In this document: positions 155-6,843 of the stretch, piece after piece
How positions within the stretch are numbered: the stretch's first letter is position 1
Layout: every line of letters begins with the position of its first letter
Assembly (NCBI GenBank): GCA_027022065.1
Contig: JALVZS010000170.1
Coordinates: forward strand, 1 to 7,235
DNA from: a bacterium
Lineage (GTDB): Bacteria; Thermosulfidibacterota; Thermosulfidibacteria; Thermosulfidibacterales; Thermosulfidibacteraceae
Direction of reading: 5' to 3'
DNA length: 7,235 nucleotides
Position numbers and translations under genes: made by a program
Notes under the pieces: model-generated
What the model was told of the DNA's origin: nothing
What the model saw: the letters and a program-made list of their open reading frames with translations, nothing else
Database searches by the model: none

Positions 155-188
155 ACTTAAAAAGTCATATTAAATCGGGAGGTGGGTC

Positions 189-1511
189 ATGTATCCAGCG
201 TGGTTTCTACCAACGCTTAGCTCCGCATTTATAATAGCCATGGTTGCTACCTTTCATATTCTGCCGTCCCATCTTGCCACCAGCGCTCTTTGGTTTGGTG
301 TTTACGTTGAGAGGAAAGCTTATAAGGAGGGAAGAAGTGAGTTCATTGAGTTTCTCAAGAAGTTTTCTCTGCTAGTGCTCATATTTTGCTTTATATACGG
401 ATCCATAACGGGTGTGGGGATATGGTTTTCGGCTGCTGCTGCATCTCCAAGGGCCATTTCTGCTTTGATACACAACTATGTTTGGGGATGGGCAACGGAA
501 TGGGTGTTCTTTATCATTGAGATAGTTACCATTTATGCCTACTACTACACCTTTGAGAGGGTATCTCCTCAGCACCACATGAGAATAGGCATCATATACG
601 CCTGGGGAGCCTGGATAAGCATGATCATCATAACGGGCATTCTTGCCTTTATGTTAACTCCTGGGCCTTGGTTCAAGACGGGTGGATTCTTTGATGGTTT
701 CTTCAATCCCACTTATTGGCCTCAGCTCTTGAGCAGAACGGGATTTATGTTTTCTTTAGCCGCTGTCTATGCGATGATTGCTGCATCACGCATGTCCAAC
801 TCTCCTGCTAAGGAAGAAATAATAAGAATGGCCTCTATTTGGGGTATGGGGGGGCTTATAGCTGGTGCTTTGTTTGGGTTATGGTATCTCCACAAGATCC
901 CTTCTAGTGCTAAAGACTTGATGGATAGCCTCGTTTATCTGAAGCATCTTTTGGTGATATGCGGGGTCTTTGGTGCTTTGGTTTTCGTGTACTTTGCGGT
1001 ATTCGGCTACCTTAGGCCTTCGCTGGCTAGAGGATGGCTCAGTGTGGCGGCTGTTATTGTGCTTTTTGTTTCCATCATTGCAGGTGAGGCTTTTAGAGAA
1101 GGTATAAGAAGGCCCTATATAATCGGTGGACTTATGTATGGAAGCAGCCAGGTTATAGCCAGGGATGTTCCTGCAAAGAAGGTTAAGTCAGAGGTGGAGG
1201 AGCTTAATGAAAAGGGGTTCCTAAGCAGGTTATACTACCTTCCTCCTAGATTCCGCACCATCAATGATAAAAATATGATTGAGGTGGGCAGAATAATTGT
1301 ATCCCATGAATGTGCAGGCTGCCATTCTATTAAAAGAAATGGGCTTATAAGGCCTTTGGCTAAACTGCTAAACGGTATGGAAAAAGAAGACATAGAGGAC
1401 ATCTTAGATAGCCTGGGGGATTATCCCTACATGCCGCCCTTTATAGGCAATGAGAAGGAGAAGGAGGCGGCTGCTGCCTATCTAGCCAAAATAGCAAAGG
1501 AGAGGAGGTAA
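189..1511 (+). CDS. cydA: Cytochrome bd-like oxidase subunit I with fused C-terminal cytochrome c domain
   Basis: A 440-residue inner-membrane protein with about eight membrane helices (near 10-40, 58-80, 104-121, 134-156, 183-201, 215-233, 251-274, 283-300). It aligns by eye with E. coli CydA: His23 with heme ligand His19, Glu104 and Glu111 with Glu99 and Glu107, QHHMRIG with VQHM, and [12 protein letters not shown] with VAEYGRQPW, so Glu304 matches Glu445 and Arg307 matches Arg448. The b558 ligands His186 and Met393 fall on Arg183 (or Ser182) and Leu255. The quinol-binding Q-loop is absent: only about 18 residues join helices 6 and 7. The ninth helix is replaced by a soluble domain with CAGCH (Cys375, Cys378, His379) and a likely distal Met415 in YMPPF, which is a class I cytochrome c fold. 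Eight helices put that domain on the periplasmic side. The start has a strong SD. Its stop is 3 bases from the next gene. Family assignment is firm; electron donor and product are inferred. Confidence 0.85.
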
Positions 1512-2735: not shown

Positions 2736-3245
2736 CTACCTCATTATCGCGCAGGATATCAGAAACAGCAGGGTATTTGAGGCCACTTTAATGGTTATTG
2801 TGCTTAAAAGAAGATTTCCCGATACGGTTTCTTCTAGGAAAGCTGTTGCAATTGCGTATTTCATCAGCACATCTGCTGCAAAAACTGCGATGGCGAGAAA
2901 CATTTGAACAATAGTATTTCCCACCTCTATCTTTCTTTCCAGTATGTTAAGCCCCTCTGCTATTGTGATCTTGGATAGCGCATTTACCCCTAGTATAGCT
3001 CCGTTGAATAGGTCTTCTGTTAATCCTCCCAACCATGCCCACAATAGCAGGGGTATGCCTTTTGTGTTTGTTCTAAGTGCCATGAAGGCTACGAAAACCC
3101 CCATGATATCTAGATACTTGGAGGCAAGATTTTCGCTGAATATGAGAAGCAGCATTCTAACGAGCAGGAAGAATAAAAAGATACCCAATGACTGTGCAAA
3201 GTTGCTGTTACCGTTTTCTTTTTGCCTTCTTCTTCGTTTTGCCAA
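2736..3245 (-). CDS. mreD: Rod shape-determining protein MreD
   Basis: A small integral-membrane protein of the elongasome that links the MreB/MreC scaffold to the RodA/PBP2 wall synthases. About five to six hydrophobic helices are visible, with the family hallmark GLTEDLFNGAILGVNALSK in the middle (compare G-L-x-x-D-L-x-x-G-x-x-L-G-x-N-A-L in MreD). No ATG starts the frame. The longest frame begins at TTG 3260, which has no SD. I prefer TTG at 3245, with GGAG nine bases upstream (3255-3258), giving 169 residues. A third choice, TTG 25 codons from the longest start, would begin right before the first helix, as in most MreD proteins. The preferred start overlaps mreC by 38 bases and gives a very basic cytosolic N-terminus (AKRRRRQK), unusual for the family. 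Stop TAG at 2736-2738. Confidence 0.87.
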   Translation of the reverse strand: MAKRRRRQKENGNSNFAQSLGIFLFFLLVRMLLLIFSENLASKYLDIMGVFVAFMALRTNTKGIPLLLWAWLGGLTEDLFNGAILGVNALSKITIAEGLNILERKIEVGNTIVQMFLAIAVFAADVLMKYAIATAFLEETVSGNLLLSTITIKVASNTLLFLISCAIMR

Positions 3246-4029
3246 CGGGCCTTTCTCCAACTATAAGCACTATTCTGTTGTTTTCTATTCTATCTGTAGG
3301 TATTAACTCTATATCCAAAAATTTTTCTTCTATGCTTCTTTCAACTCTCGCCACTCTGCCCACATAGACGCCTGGAGGGAAAATTCCCCCTATTCCGGTG
3401 GATACAAAAAGGTCTCCTACCTTAACATCCATTCCAGGTGGGACGTAATCCACCTTCATCCGCTCACCAGTGCCTTTTGCTACTCCTTTCACTTTTGAGC
3501 GGAAGTCCTCCACGTGTATGGAAAACTCAGGGTCCGTGTTGCTTATAGCCACGCTGTAGTTTTCGTATACATACCTTATCTGACCTACTATTCCATTGCT
3601 TCCGATAACCGCCATGCCCTCTTTTACTCCGTCTTTTTTACCTCTGTTGAGTTTAAAGCGTTTTTCCCAGTACTCACCCACCCAACCCGTGACCTCTGCT
3701 GGAATTACAATGTTTTTTAGCCTCTCCTTTAACCCCAAAAGCCTTGAGAGTTGTAAGTTTTCTCTTCGCAGTTTTTGATTAATCATGTCTATCTGCTTCA
3801 GTTCTAGTAGTTTTGTTTTTAACAGCTTGTTTTCCTCTAGGATTTTGCCGGCTTCTACGATAGAGCGGACGGTCTTTGTGCTTTGTTGTTTAAGACCCTG
3901 GTATATCTCAAGGATCTTTGTGCTTATCAATACAGGCCCTTCGGCTATGGCTCTCACCTTTATTCTTAGGGTTATTAGTGCAGTGGAAAGGAGGAACAGA
4001 AGTATGTAGCTTGCTACCTCCTTCTTCAA
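3208..4029 (-). CDS. mreC: Rod shape-determining protein MreC
   Basis: A 273-residue bitopic protein: a short cytosolic N-terminus, one membrane helix (about 6-23), a periplasmic coiled coil (about 55-105, Leu/Ile heptads) and the twin beta-barrel domain (about 108-256). The family signature [17 protein letters not shown] lies at 210-226, followed by [12 protein letters not shown]. In the elongasome MreC connects MreB and MreD to PBP2. The start is TTG; TTGA (4026-4029) joins it to the mreB stop in a 4-base overlap, implying translational coupling, with AAGAGGA upstream as a plausible SD. The C-terminus ends in a Lys/Arg-rich tail ([11 protein letters not shown]) beyond the usual barrel. This tail is encoded in the region overlapping mreD, so both proteins are basic there because both read the same A/G-rich DNA. 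Confidence 0.95.
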
Positions 4030-5054
4030 GCCACAGAAATCCTCTTAAGAAGGGATAGGTGATCTAAAACCTTCCCTGCGCCTTTGACCACGCAGGTTAA
4101 GGGATCCTCTGCCACTATAACTGGCAGTTTAGTCTTTTCTGCAAGCACCCTGTCTAAACCTGGAAGTAGTGCTCCTCCTCCTGCCAAAACTATCCCTCTC
4201 TCCGCCAGATCTGCTGATAACTCAGGGGGAACCTTTTCTAAAGATTCCTTAACCGTTATCACTATCTTGTGCACCGTTTCTGATATGGCTTCCCTTATCT
4301 CTGCTGAAGTAACCTTAATAGTTGCGGGCACCCCTTCTGCCAGATCCCTGCCTTTAACCTCCAGATATCCTTCCCTGTCGGTTTCTGGGTGTGCCGATGC
4401 AAACTCTATCTTTATTCTCTCTGCCGTCTTTTCTCCTATTATCAGGTTGTACTTCTTTTTTATATACTGAACTATGGCCTCATCTATTTCATCTCCTGCT
4501 ATCCTAAGGGATTGGCTGTACACTATTCCTGAGAGGGAGATCACTGCTATTTCGGTGGTCCCTCCTCCTATGTCCACTATCATGTTTCCCACAGGTTCCT
4601 GCACAGGGAGTCCTGCTCCAATGGCTGCTGCCATGGGCTGTTCTATGAGATAAACCTCCCTTGCCCCTGCCGATGAAACTGAATCTATAACTGCTTTCTT
4701 CTCCACCTGCGTTATTCCTGAAGGGACTGCCACCACAACCCTTGGCCTTACGAAGGTGTTTCTGTTGTGTACCTTCTTTATAAAGTAGGAAAGCATAGCT
4801 TCTGTAACCTCAAAATCCGTGATAACGCCATCTCTCAGGGGTCTTATTGAAACAATATTTCCTGGCGTTTTCCCCAGCATCTTCTTCGCTTCCTCTCCCA
4901 CGGCTAAAACGGTGTTGCTGTCCTTGTCTATAGCCACGACGGAAGGCTCTCTTAGAACTATGCCTTTCCCCTTGACATAGATGAGCGTATTGGCTGTTCC
5001 TAAATCTACTGCGAGATCCTTGGAAAATATCCCCAGCAATCTGTTGAGCATCAT
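4026..5054 (-). CDS. mreB: Rod shape-determining protein MreB (bacterial actin)
   Basis: A 342-residue actin-family ATPase that forms membrane-bound filaments directing lateral wall growth. The nucleotide-binding signatures are clear: phosphate-1 loop [17 protein letters not shown] (15-31), connect/phosphate-2 region [19 protein letters not shown] (158-176) and adenosine motif [17 protein letters not shown] (288-304). Length matches the family (about 340). An N-terminal MLNRLLGIF segment could act as the amphipathic membrane anchor seen in many MreBs. Two adjacent ATGs exist: 5054 is the longest, while 5051 gives better spacing from AGAGG, so the true start may be one codon shorter. It is first in mreB-mreC-mreD and begins 28 bases after tRNA-Arg on the same strand. 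No penicillin-binding protein 2 or rodA gene follows mreD here, since the strand changes. Confidence 0.97.
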
Positions 5055-5082: not shown

Positions 5083-5156
5083 CGCCCCCGGGGTGATTTG
5101 AACACCCGACCTACGGCTCCGGAGGCCGTCGCTCTATCCAACTGAGCTACGGGGGC
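5083..5156 (-). tRNA. tRNA-Arg (anticodon CCG)
   Basis: Read on the minus strand, the gene folds as a complete cloverleaf. The 7-bp acceptor is GCCCCCG/CGGGGGC and the D arm is GCTC/GAGC. The anticodon stem ACGGC/GCCGT holds loop CTCCGGA, so bases 34-36 are CCG and read the arginine codon CGG. A five-base variable region AGGTC follows, then T stem GGGTG/CACCC with loop TTCAAAT. The discriminator is G at 5083. CCA is not encoded (TT follows), so it must be added enzymatically. The gene lies between a strong promoter and mreB and probably shares a precursor transcript with the mre operon. Confidence 0.96.
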
Positions 5157-5274: not shown

Positions 5275-5589
5275 ATGTTTGGAAGAGGAGGTTGGGGATA
5301 TGGACACAGACATGGATGGGGAGGTTGGGGAGGCTACGGTAGAAGATGGTGGCCTCCTGCAAGTGTTGAGGGCTACACCTATGTGGGCCCTTGCCGCTGT
5401 GGATGGGGACCTCATGCCTATTATGTGGACTCCTCCGGCAGGCTTGTGCACGCTTGGGATGTCTTCTCTGGTAGAGCCCCTGTTTCCTTCCAGGAGGCCG
5501 AGCTTGAGGCACTGAAGAGGGAGAAGGAGGAGCTGGAGAAAAGGATAAGAGAGCTGGAGGAAAAGCTTAAGAAAGGTGGGGAATCTTAA
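5275..5589 (+). CDS. Small Gly/Trp/His-rich protein with Cys-X-Cys/His centre and coiled-coil tail
   Basis: 104 residues in three parts. Residues 1-26 hold 11 Gly, 5 Trp, two His and several Arg/Tyr, with no signal peptide or membrane helix. Residues 33-70 are more ordered and contain Cys40, Cys42, His47 and His59, a possible metal site. Residues 74-100 form a charged coiled coil with a/d positions Leu77, Leu80, Leu87, Ile91, Leu94, Leu98. The layout (Gly/aromatic-rich head, coiled-coil tail) resembles small DUF5320-type proteins, but the usual GTGPxGxGPxTGRG opening of that group is absent, so I do not assign it. The start has a strong SD (TAGGAGGTG, 8 bases or fewer upstream), its own promoter, and a strong terminator after the stop, so it is a genuine single-gene transcript and could be well expressed. 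Function unknown. Confidence 0.8.
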   Translation: MFGRGGWGYGHRHGWGGWGGYGRRWWPPASVEGYTYVGPCRCGWGPHAYYVDSSGRLVHAWDVFSGRAPVSFQEAELEALKREKEELEKRIRELEEKLKKGGES

Positions 5590-5664: not shown

Positions 5665-6843
5665 ATGAAGCTAACGGTAAAGGGGAAGTTTGCCGATAGA
5701 ATAAGAGAAGGTTATCCCTGGATATTCAGAGATTGGGTTAAGTCTCTGGATGCTGTTGGGCCTGGAGAGGTAGTTTCTGTTCACTCTCCAACCGGGAAGT
5801 TTCTGGGTATGGCCTATGTGAATCCAGACTCTTACATAGTTGGAAGGGTGTATTCTAAGTCTGAGGAGCCTCTTAACAGGGAGCTTGTATTCAAAAGACT
5901 TGAAGCTGCCATTTCTCTTAGGGACTCCCTTGATATTGACTCTTCTGCTTTCAGGGTGCTCTTCAGCGAGGCGGATGGTCTTCCCGGTCTTATTGTGGAT
6001 TGGTACTCTGGAGTTGTGGTTTTTCAGATCCTTACCTTGGGTATAGAGAAGATCAGGGAAGAGGTGATTGAGGCTATAAAGGAGGTTCTGAATCCGAGGG
6101 CTCTTGTGGAAAGAAGGGATGCCCCTGGAAGACACATGGAAGGACTTTCCGTGGAAAAAGCCGTGGTTCATTACGGTTCTAAATGGCTGGAGCATGGAAG
6201 GGTGAGAATAGAGGAAAACGGCCTTAAGTTTTGGGTGGATCTCTTTCACGGTCACAAAACGGGACACTATCTGGATCAAAGGGAGAACAGGCTGGAGGTG
6301 GCGAAGCTTGCAAAAGGTAAAAAGGTGCTTGACTGTTTTTGTAATACAGGTGGTTTTGGTATTACTTGTGCAGCAATGGGGGCTGAGGAGGTCACATGCA
6401 TAGATCTTTCTGAAAAGATGCTTGAGCTCGGGGTGGAGAACGCAAAATTGAACGGGGTTGAGAATAAGGTATTTTTTGTGAAAGGGGATGTTTTTGATGA
6501 ACTAAGGACGCTTGTTAGAAGGGGAATGGAGTTTGATATAGTAATTTTGGATCCTCCATCTTTTACAAAATCCAAAAAGACCCTTCAGAATGCCCTCAGG
6601 GGCTACAAGGATATAAATGTGCATGCCCTTAGACTAATTAAACCTGGCGGCTTTTTGGTAACTGCCAGTTGTTCCCATCACGTAACGCTGGATCTCTTTA
6701 TGGATGTGGTAAATAGTGCTTTAAAGGATGCTGGAAGAAGTGCAAGGCTCGTTGCCATACGGTTTCAGGCAAAGGATCATCCTATGCTCTTTAGCATGCC
6801 TGAGACGTTGTATTTAAAGCTTCTCATACTGGAGGTTCATTAG
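5665..6843 (+). CDS. rlmI: 23S rRNA (cytosine-C5) methyltransferase, RlmI family
   Basis: A 392-residue SAM-dependent enzyme of the RlmI/YccW group (COG1092), which in E. coli makes m5C1962 in 23S rRNA. The N-terminal part is a PUA domain (about 1-75; REGYPWIFRDWV is typical). A linker domain with GLPGLIVDWY (105-114) follows, then the Rossmann methyltransferase. Visible motifs are HKTGHYLDQRENR (197-209, motif X), VLDCFCNTGGF (221-231, SAM-binding motif I), acidic Asp247 in CIDLS, LDPPSFTKSK (295-304, motif IV) and TASCSHHV (333-340, motif VI with the conserved Cys336). Length is normal for the family (about 390-400). An in-frame TAA at 5644 limits the start, and the ATG at 5665 fits the family, though its SD is poor: GGAGGG lies about 22 bases upstream. 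Exact target base inferred from family. Co-directional with ribE. Confidence 0.93.
   Translation: MKLTVKGKFADRIREGYPWIFRDWVKSLDAVGPGEVVSVHSPTGKFLGMAYVNPDSYIVGRVYSKSEEPLNRELVFKRLEAAISLRDSLDIDSSAFRVLFSEADGLPGLIVDWYSGVVVFQILTLGIEKIREEVIEAIKEVLNPRALVERRDAPGRHMEGLSVEKAVVHYGSKWLEHGRVRIEENGLKFWVDLFHGHKTGHYLDQRENRLEVAKLAKGKKVLDCFCNTGGFGITCAAMGAEEVTCIDLSEKMLELGVENAKLNGVENKVFFVKGDVFDELRTLVRRGMEFDIVILDPPSFTKSKKTLQNALRGYKDINVHALRLIKPGGFLVTASCSHHVTLDLFMDVVNSALKDAGRSARLVAIRFQAKDHPMLFSMPETLYLKLLILEVH

Follow-up and report, generated by a model that had tools for sequence, protein, structure and literature searches.

The stretch of DNA analysed here (the window; 7,235 nucleotides) is contig G000:C170 of a 1.57 Mb genome in 251 contigs, with an estimated completeness of 88%. 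It begins with two genes for membrane proteins, which we term subunit I and subunit II; coordinates and features of both are listed in Table 1. The subunit I gene is a single unbroken frame, and the subunit II gene starts 3 bases past its stop codon, with an AGGAGG upstream. Convergent with the oxidase genes, on the minus strand at 2736-5054, are an mreB-like gene, mreC (Pfam, 7e-34) and a frame weakly resembling mreD, and a tRNA-Arg (CCG) lies on the same strand at 5083-5156. These are followed by a small protein rich in Gly and Trp, with a coiled coil at its C-terminus (5275-5589; weak DUF5320 match, E 0.07, below cut-off), a SAM-dependent methyltransferase with a PUA-like domain (5665-6843; RlmI-like) and a riboflavin synthase-like frame cut by the contig end (6844-7233). 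An Rfam search returned no family except one tRNA.

Table 1. Genes and sequence features of the oxidase locus, in window coordinates.
Feature	Coordinates	Strand	Basis
Shine-Dalgarno-like GGGAGGTG 5′ of subunit I	178-185	+	sequence inspection
Subunit I: bd-type core (8 TM) with C-terminal mono-heme cytochrome c, 440 aa	189-1511	+	ORF, Pfam, alignment, model
H23, aligns with TM1 active-site heme ligand of canonical CydA	255-257	+	alignment
E104 and E111, counterparts of the conserved glutamates in TM3 of canonical CydA	498-521	+	alignment
R183, beside the lost heme b558 His position	735-737	+	alignment
REGIRRPY (R303, E304, R307, P309), counterpart of canonical AEVGRQPW, end of TM8	1095-1118	+	profile alignment
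Cytochrome c domain (CAGCH 1311-1325; axial Met415 1431-1433)	1281-1484	+	Pfam, alignment, structure match
Subunit II: CydA-like paralogue of 397 aa with about 10 TM helices	1515-2708	+	model, profile comparison

Fold and topology of subunit I

Subunit I has a Pfam match to Cyt_bd_oxida_I over residues 15-228 (1.3e-8, above the curated cut-off) and a match to Cytochrome_CBB3 (PF13442) over residues 365-432 (1.4e-5). The latter scored 25.7 bits against a cut-off of 27 in the window search and 29.7 bits, above the cut-off, in the genome search. The CAGCH motif spans residues 375-379 (C375, C378, H379), and YMPPF spans residues 414-418 (M415). These two cysteines, the histidine and the methionine are invariant in 71/71 aligned full-length subunit I proteins, which rules out a chance heme c motif. 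A frameshifted or chimeric gene is also ruled out, since full-length relatives occur in many MAGs and in one named strain. The preliminary description of a CydA-like core running directly into both heme c motifs in one frame is thus correct. A PDB sequence search gave no match for either subunit.

The AlphaFold model of subunit I (pLDDT 89.9, pTM 0.88; 71-row alignment) has long helices at residues 12-47 (broken at 28), 50-85, 98-120, 127-156, 176-199, 205-236, 249-275 and 282-306. These are eight membrane helices; the ninth is absent, as had been proposed. Using VIA-align, residues 6-321 superpose on CydA of ten solved bd oxidases with Z scores of 29-32 and an rmsd of about 3. On the E. coli chains the superposition reaches to about residue 462. 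Residues 360-440 of subunit I match class I cytochromes c, with Z up to 7.8. SorU is the best of these matches, with other class I cytochromes within 1 Z unit. At the place of the canonical Q-loop, the TM6-TM7 connection is 12 residues long (237-248). In the model, therefore, a cytochrome c stands in place of helix 9, and all that is left of the Q-loop is a link of 12 residues.

The N-terminus of canonical CydA lies outside. With eight helices and the same outside N-terminus, the cytochrome c domain of subunit I would be periplasmic. The loop charges are as expected for an N-out/C-out protein, with 11 lysines and arginines in loops inferred to be cytoplasmic and 4 in loops inferred to be periplasmic. 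A C-terminus on the periplasmic side, carrying heme c, had been suggested from the sequence and is supported both by the even number of helices and by these charges.

Family placement and active-site residues

The cytochrome bd superfamily comprises the qOR, OR-C and OR-N families (PMC13189123). Only one of the three has a quinol site, the others using cytochrome c or possibly another donor (PMC8509429), and the literature treats the two families without the site as probably fed in this way (PMC8509429, PMC9266656, PMC10839748, PMC13189123). The biochemically characterised cytochromes bd are all quinol oxidases (PMC9266656), and our literature search found no biochemically characterised member of OR-C. 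Subunit I belongs to the superfamily by its Pfam match (1.3e-8), by Z scores of about 30 to ten CydA chains, and by conservation of H23, E104, E111 and E304. It also has the C-terminal heme c domain and lacks the quinol site, as OR-C proteins do. The OR-C family was reportedly described by Murali, Gennis and Hemp in 2021, and its hallmark is said to be a C-terminal heme c domain on subunit I. As OR-C is defined in the papers that cite this work, the gene pair fits the family, which had already been named from genome surveys. Compared through those later papers, the pair resembles OR-C in its bd active-site core, missing quinol site and presumed cytochrome c donor, with no clear difference; with group labels assigned here, it falls in a clade beside qOR and OR-N. 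The idea of a new kind of enzyme is accordingly set aside. Three points go beyond the first reading of the locus: the loss of both b558 ligands, a CydA-like partner, and a range of heme c attachments among relatives.

Trees were built from 52 proteins, using either the whole protein or the protein with its cytochrome c domain removed. The heme-c group forms one side of a branch in both (98/99 for the whole protein, 100/99 without the cytochrome c domain). Canonical CydA lies outside it, as do bd-like proteins without heme c that come from the same phylum as a Nitrospirae genome. For these trees, groups were labelled OR-C or OR-N here by CxxCH content and source, not by published reference sequences. 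How the three groups branch relative to one another is not the same in both trees.

Subunit I keeps the active-site residues of canonical CydA and has lost the ligands of heme b558. Histidine occupies the H23 column in 30/30 OR-C, 10/10 OR-N-like and 12/12 canonical proteins; its counterpart in E. coli CydA is presumably H19. E104 and E111 correspond to E98 and E106 of the canonical CydA encoded in the same genome. In a profile alignment of subunit I against 36 canonical CydA sequences (97.5% probability), REGIRRPY pairs with AEVGRQPW, so that E304 matches the canonical TM8 glutamate; this pairing comes from the profile alignment, and MAFFT alignments did not align the two. H23, E104, E111, R303, E304, R307 and P309 are invariant across 71 full-length subunit I proteins. 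All 12 canonical and all 10 OR-N-like proteins have the TM5 histidine of heme b558, as against 0/30 in the heme-c group; for the TM7 methionine the counts are 12/12 in canonical and 0/30 in heme-c proteins. An arginine fills the R183 column in all 30 heme-c proteins. The Q-loop lysine and glutamate (K249 and E254 in the canonical CydA of this genome) are found in 12/12 canonical sequences, as against 3/30 and 0/30 in the heme-c group, which bears out the earlier observation that the Q-loop is absent. With both b558 ligands lost and the active-site residues kept, subunit I probably binds two active-site hemes and heme c, without b558, as judged from these alignments. Four residues past R183, TM5 has a conserved methionine at residue 187 (window 747-749; 61/71, with cysteine in 9).

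Compared with known systems, the window pair shares with canonical bd oxidases (qOR, CydAB) the TM1-TM4 core, the conserved H/E/E residues, a GRQPW-like motif with its glutamate, and the overall fold. It differs in lacking the Q-loop motif, the b558 ligands and helix 9, in carrying a cytochrome c domain, and in having a CydA-like partner where canonical enzymes have CydB. The OR-N protein CydAA' is carried by Nitrospinota and Nitrospirales (PMC10839748, PMC12342949). OR-N proteins of Nitrospira and Nitrospinota resemble the pair in lacking the canonical quinol site and in having an arginine beside the b558 position, and a pairing of CydA-family proteins has been proposed there too (PMC10839748). 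The OR-N-like proteins examined here have no CxxCH and keep the b558-position histidine, whereas subunit I has a heme c motif and no such histidine. The bd oxidase of Melioribacter roseus was considered as a similar enzyme and ruled out, being a short-Q-loop quinol oxidase. Among heme-copper oxidases, cbb3 and caa3 reduce oxygen with electrons that enter through an attached cytochrome c. The pair resembles them in this respect, but its fold and active site are unrelated.

Partner subunit and distribution of the gene pair

Subunit II has no Pfam match. Profile comparison relates it to subunit I (95% probability) and canonical CydA (91%) and hardly to canonical CydB (1.9%). About ten helices are seen in its model (pLDDT 90.7), which superposes on CydA chains with Z scores of 23-26. 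Foldseek alone does not separate CydA from CydB for this protein; with VIA-align, the best chain for each bd entry is CydA. The expected assignment of the partner as a recognisable CydB was therefore abandoned, and the description that best suits the enzyme is of two paired proteins of the CydA family. H31, R186, H189, M296 and R300 of subunit II are invariant in 62 sequences. In the profile alignment, H31 aligns with the TM1 ligand of canonical CydA and H189 with the b558 histidine. Subunit II would pair with subunit I in the place of CydB, as a second bd-fold protein that may carry a b heme of its own. We tentatively consider, at rather less than even odds, a heterodimer of CydA-type paralogues with a relocated third heme. 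In it, subunit I would lack b558 and be fed by its own heme c, subunit II would hold a separate b heme at the b558-position histidine, and the electron path or the charge coupling would be unlike that of every solved bd oxidase.

Scanning GTDB species genomes gave 109 confirmed related stretches, and 80 loci were kept (34-70% identity). They come from Thermodesulfobacteriota, Deltaproteobacteria, Nitrospirae, Elusimicrobia, Verrucomicrobia, Holophagaceae, Calditrichota and Methylomirabilis, and include one named strain, Thermosulfurimonas dismutans S95. Matches at E <= 0.001 were found in 4/9 genomes of the window's own small phylum, all four full-length, and strong matches (E below 1e-70) in 36/198 sampled genomes of the phylum of T. 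dismutans. Subunit II adjoins subunit I in 72/80 loci, six loci are cut by contig ends, and two (L029 and L043) have no subunit II match.

Most relatives have one heme c motif on subunit I. Two motifs are present in Verrucomicrobia, Holophagaceae and Calditrichota, where the protein is about 500 aa long, and five loci (L153, L154, L155, L156 and L157) encode proteins of 856-890 aa with eight CxxCH motifs. These long proteins combine a cytochrome c as in the window with a seven-motif tail that partly matches MtrC/MtrF and cytochrome c7 families. Open frames of 855-896 aa in some relatives, considered as candidate fusions of subunits I and II, proved to be subunit I with such a tail, and subunit II is a separate gene in L153, L156 and L157. 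A bd-type protein with eight CxxCH motifs could draw electrons from a multiheme network. The pairs in L158, L159 and L160 have one heme c motif on subunit I and two on subunit II. At L167 (1480-2892), an OR-C-like protein with one CMACH has a membrane protein of 359 aa as its neighbour. The beginning of this neighbour is similar to proteins that, in L163 and L170, are encoded between the two bd-like genes.

Proposed oxygen reduction and probable electron donor

Architecture, motif conservation, ligand loss, gene pairing and clade were shown by computation. From them we infer, with a probability of about 0.8, that the pair is a membrane oxygen reductase of the OR-C family of the bd superfamily, fed through its built-in cytochrome c; cofactor content, donor, activity and role all belong to this inference. 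Subunit I would have a two-heme active site in its first helices and a periplasmic cytochrome c domain in place of its ninth. A reduced periplasmic cytochrome c, mono- or multiheme, would pass electrons to heme c, which would pass them on to the two active-site hemes, where oxygen would be reduced to water with protons from the cytoplasm. With the quinol site of the Q-loop and the low-spin b558 lost from subunit I, heme c would take over their role as the point of entry. Electron entry through heme c rather than directly from quinol had been proposed at the outset, and the sequence comparisons favour it, given the b558 ligands in 0/30 proteins and a clade apart from canonical CydA.

It is unlikely, though still the foremost of the alternatives, that the enzyme is a quinol oxidase after all, binding quinol at another site in subunit II or at the subunit interface and using heme c as an internal relay to the active site. 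Subunit II keeps an invariant histidine at the b558 position, conserved along with subunit I. Proteins linked to quinol, polysulfide reductase subunit C among them, also belong to the wider fold group of subunit II, with lower Z scores. No Rieske protein was detected in the genome (88% completeness), and hence there is no sign of a bc1-type pathway that would carry electrons from quinol to cytochrome c. Against this, the known Q-loop motif is lost, published phylogenomics found no conserved quinol site outside qOR (PMC8509429, PMC9266656), and the position of the heme c domain, at the periplasmic end, would allow docking of a soluble donor. A bd scaffold turned mainly to nitric oxide, peroxide or another small molecule seems less probable again. 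The residues that hold both oxygen-reducing hemes of canonical bd are conserved, which speaks for oxygen, although the literature search yielded no member with biochemical data, and genes for peroxide as well as oxygen defence lie near some relatives.

A terminal oxidase of sulfur oxidation, receiving electrons from Sox or sulfite-oxidising cytochromes, would be compatible with the cytochrome c-fed oxygen reductase, and we regard it as very improbable. Several relatives come from sulfur-cycling or hydrothermal bacteria, and SorU is the best structural match of the cytochrome c domain; that match is not specific. The sulfur-oxidation donor offered as an example in the preliminary description found no backing here, as the recurring neighbours included no recognised sulfur-oxidation genes.

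The cytochrome c-fed oxygen reductase would serve in trace oxygen removal or microaerobic respiration in a cytochrome c-rich bacterium. CxxCH motifs are abundant in the genome, where one stretch of a contig has 12 and another has 7, and cytochrome c assembly genes are present. A dedicated soluble cytochrome c donor was not found in a search with PF13442, for which subunit I is the sole match in the genome. The genome also encodes a canonical cydAB (G000:C141), and no heme-copper oxidase was detected at 88% completeness. If true, a cytochrome c-fed bd enzyme without b558 would show which parts of a bd oxidase are needed for oxygen reduction, and would give anaerobes an oxygen sink supplied from the periplasmic pool of cytochromes. 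The question is testable, as the pair is also present in T. dismutans S95.

Oxidases of the bd type are a known oxygen defence in sulfate reducers (PMC11451228). Genes for defence against oxygen and reactive oxygen species lie within about 5 kb at 10/78 loci, a raw count that stems mostly from one clade of related genomes; there is no such neighbour in the window itself. The genes include those for rubrerythrin, PerR/Fur, flavodiiron-like proteins, desulfoferrodoxin, ferritin and peroxiredoxin, which weakly suggests a role in oxygen removal in some lineages. Six other loci have Rieske genes and six have cytochrome b genes about 5 kb away. At L069, L032, L019 and L072, the heme-c bd genes are found near genes for rubrerythrin, flavodiiron-like proteins, PerR/Fur, desulfoferrodoxin and ferritin.
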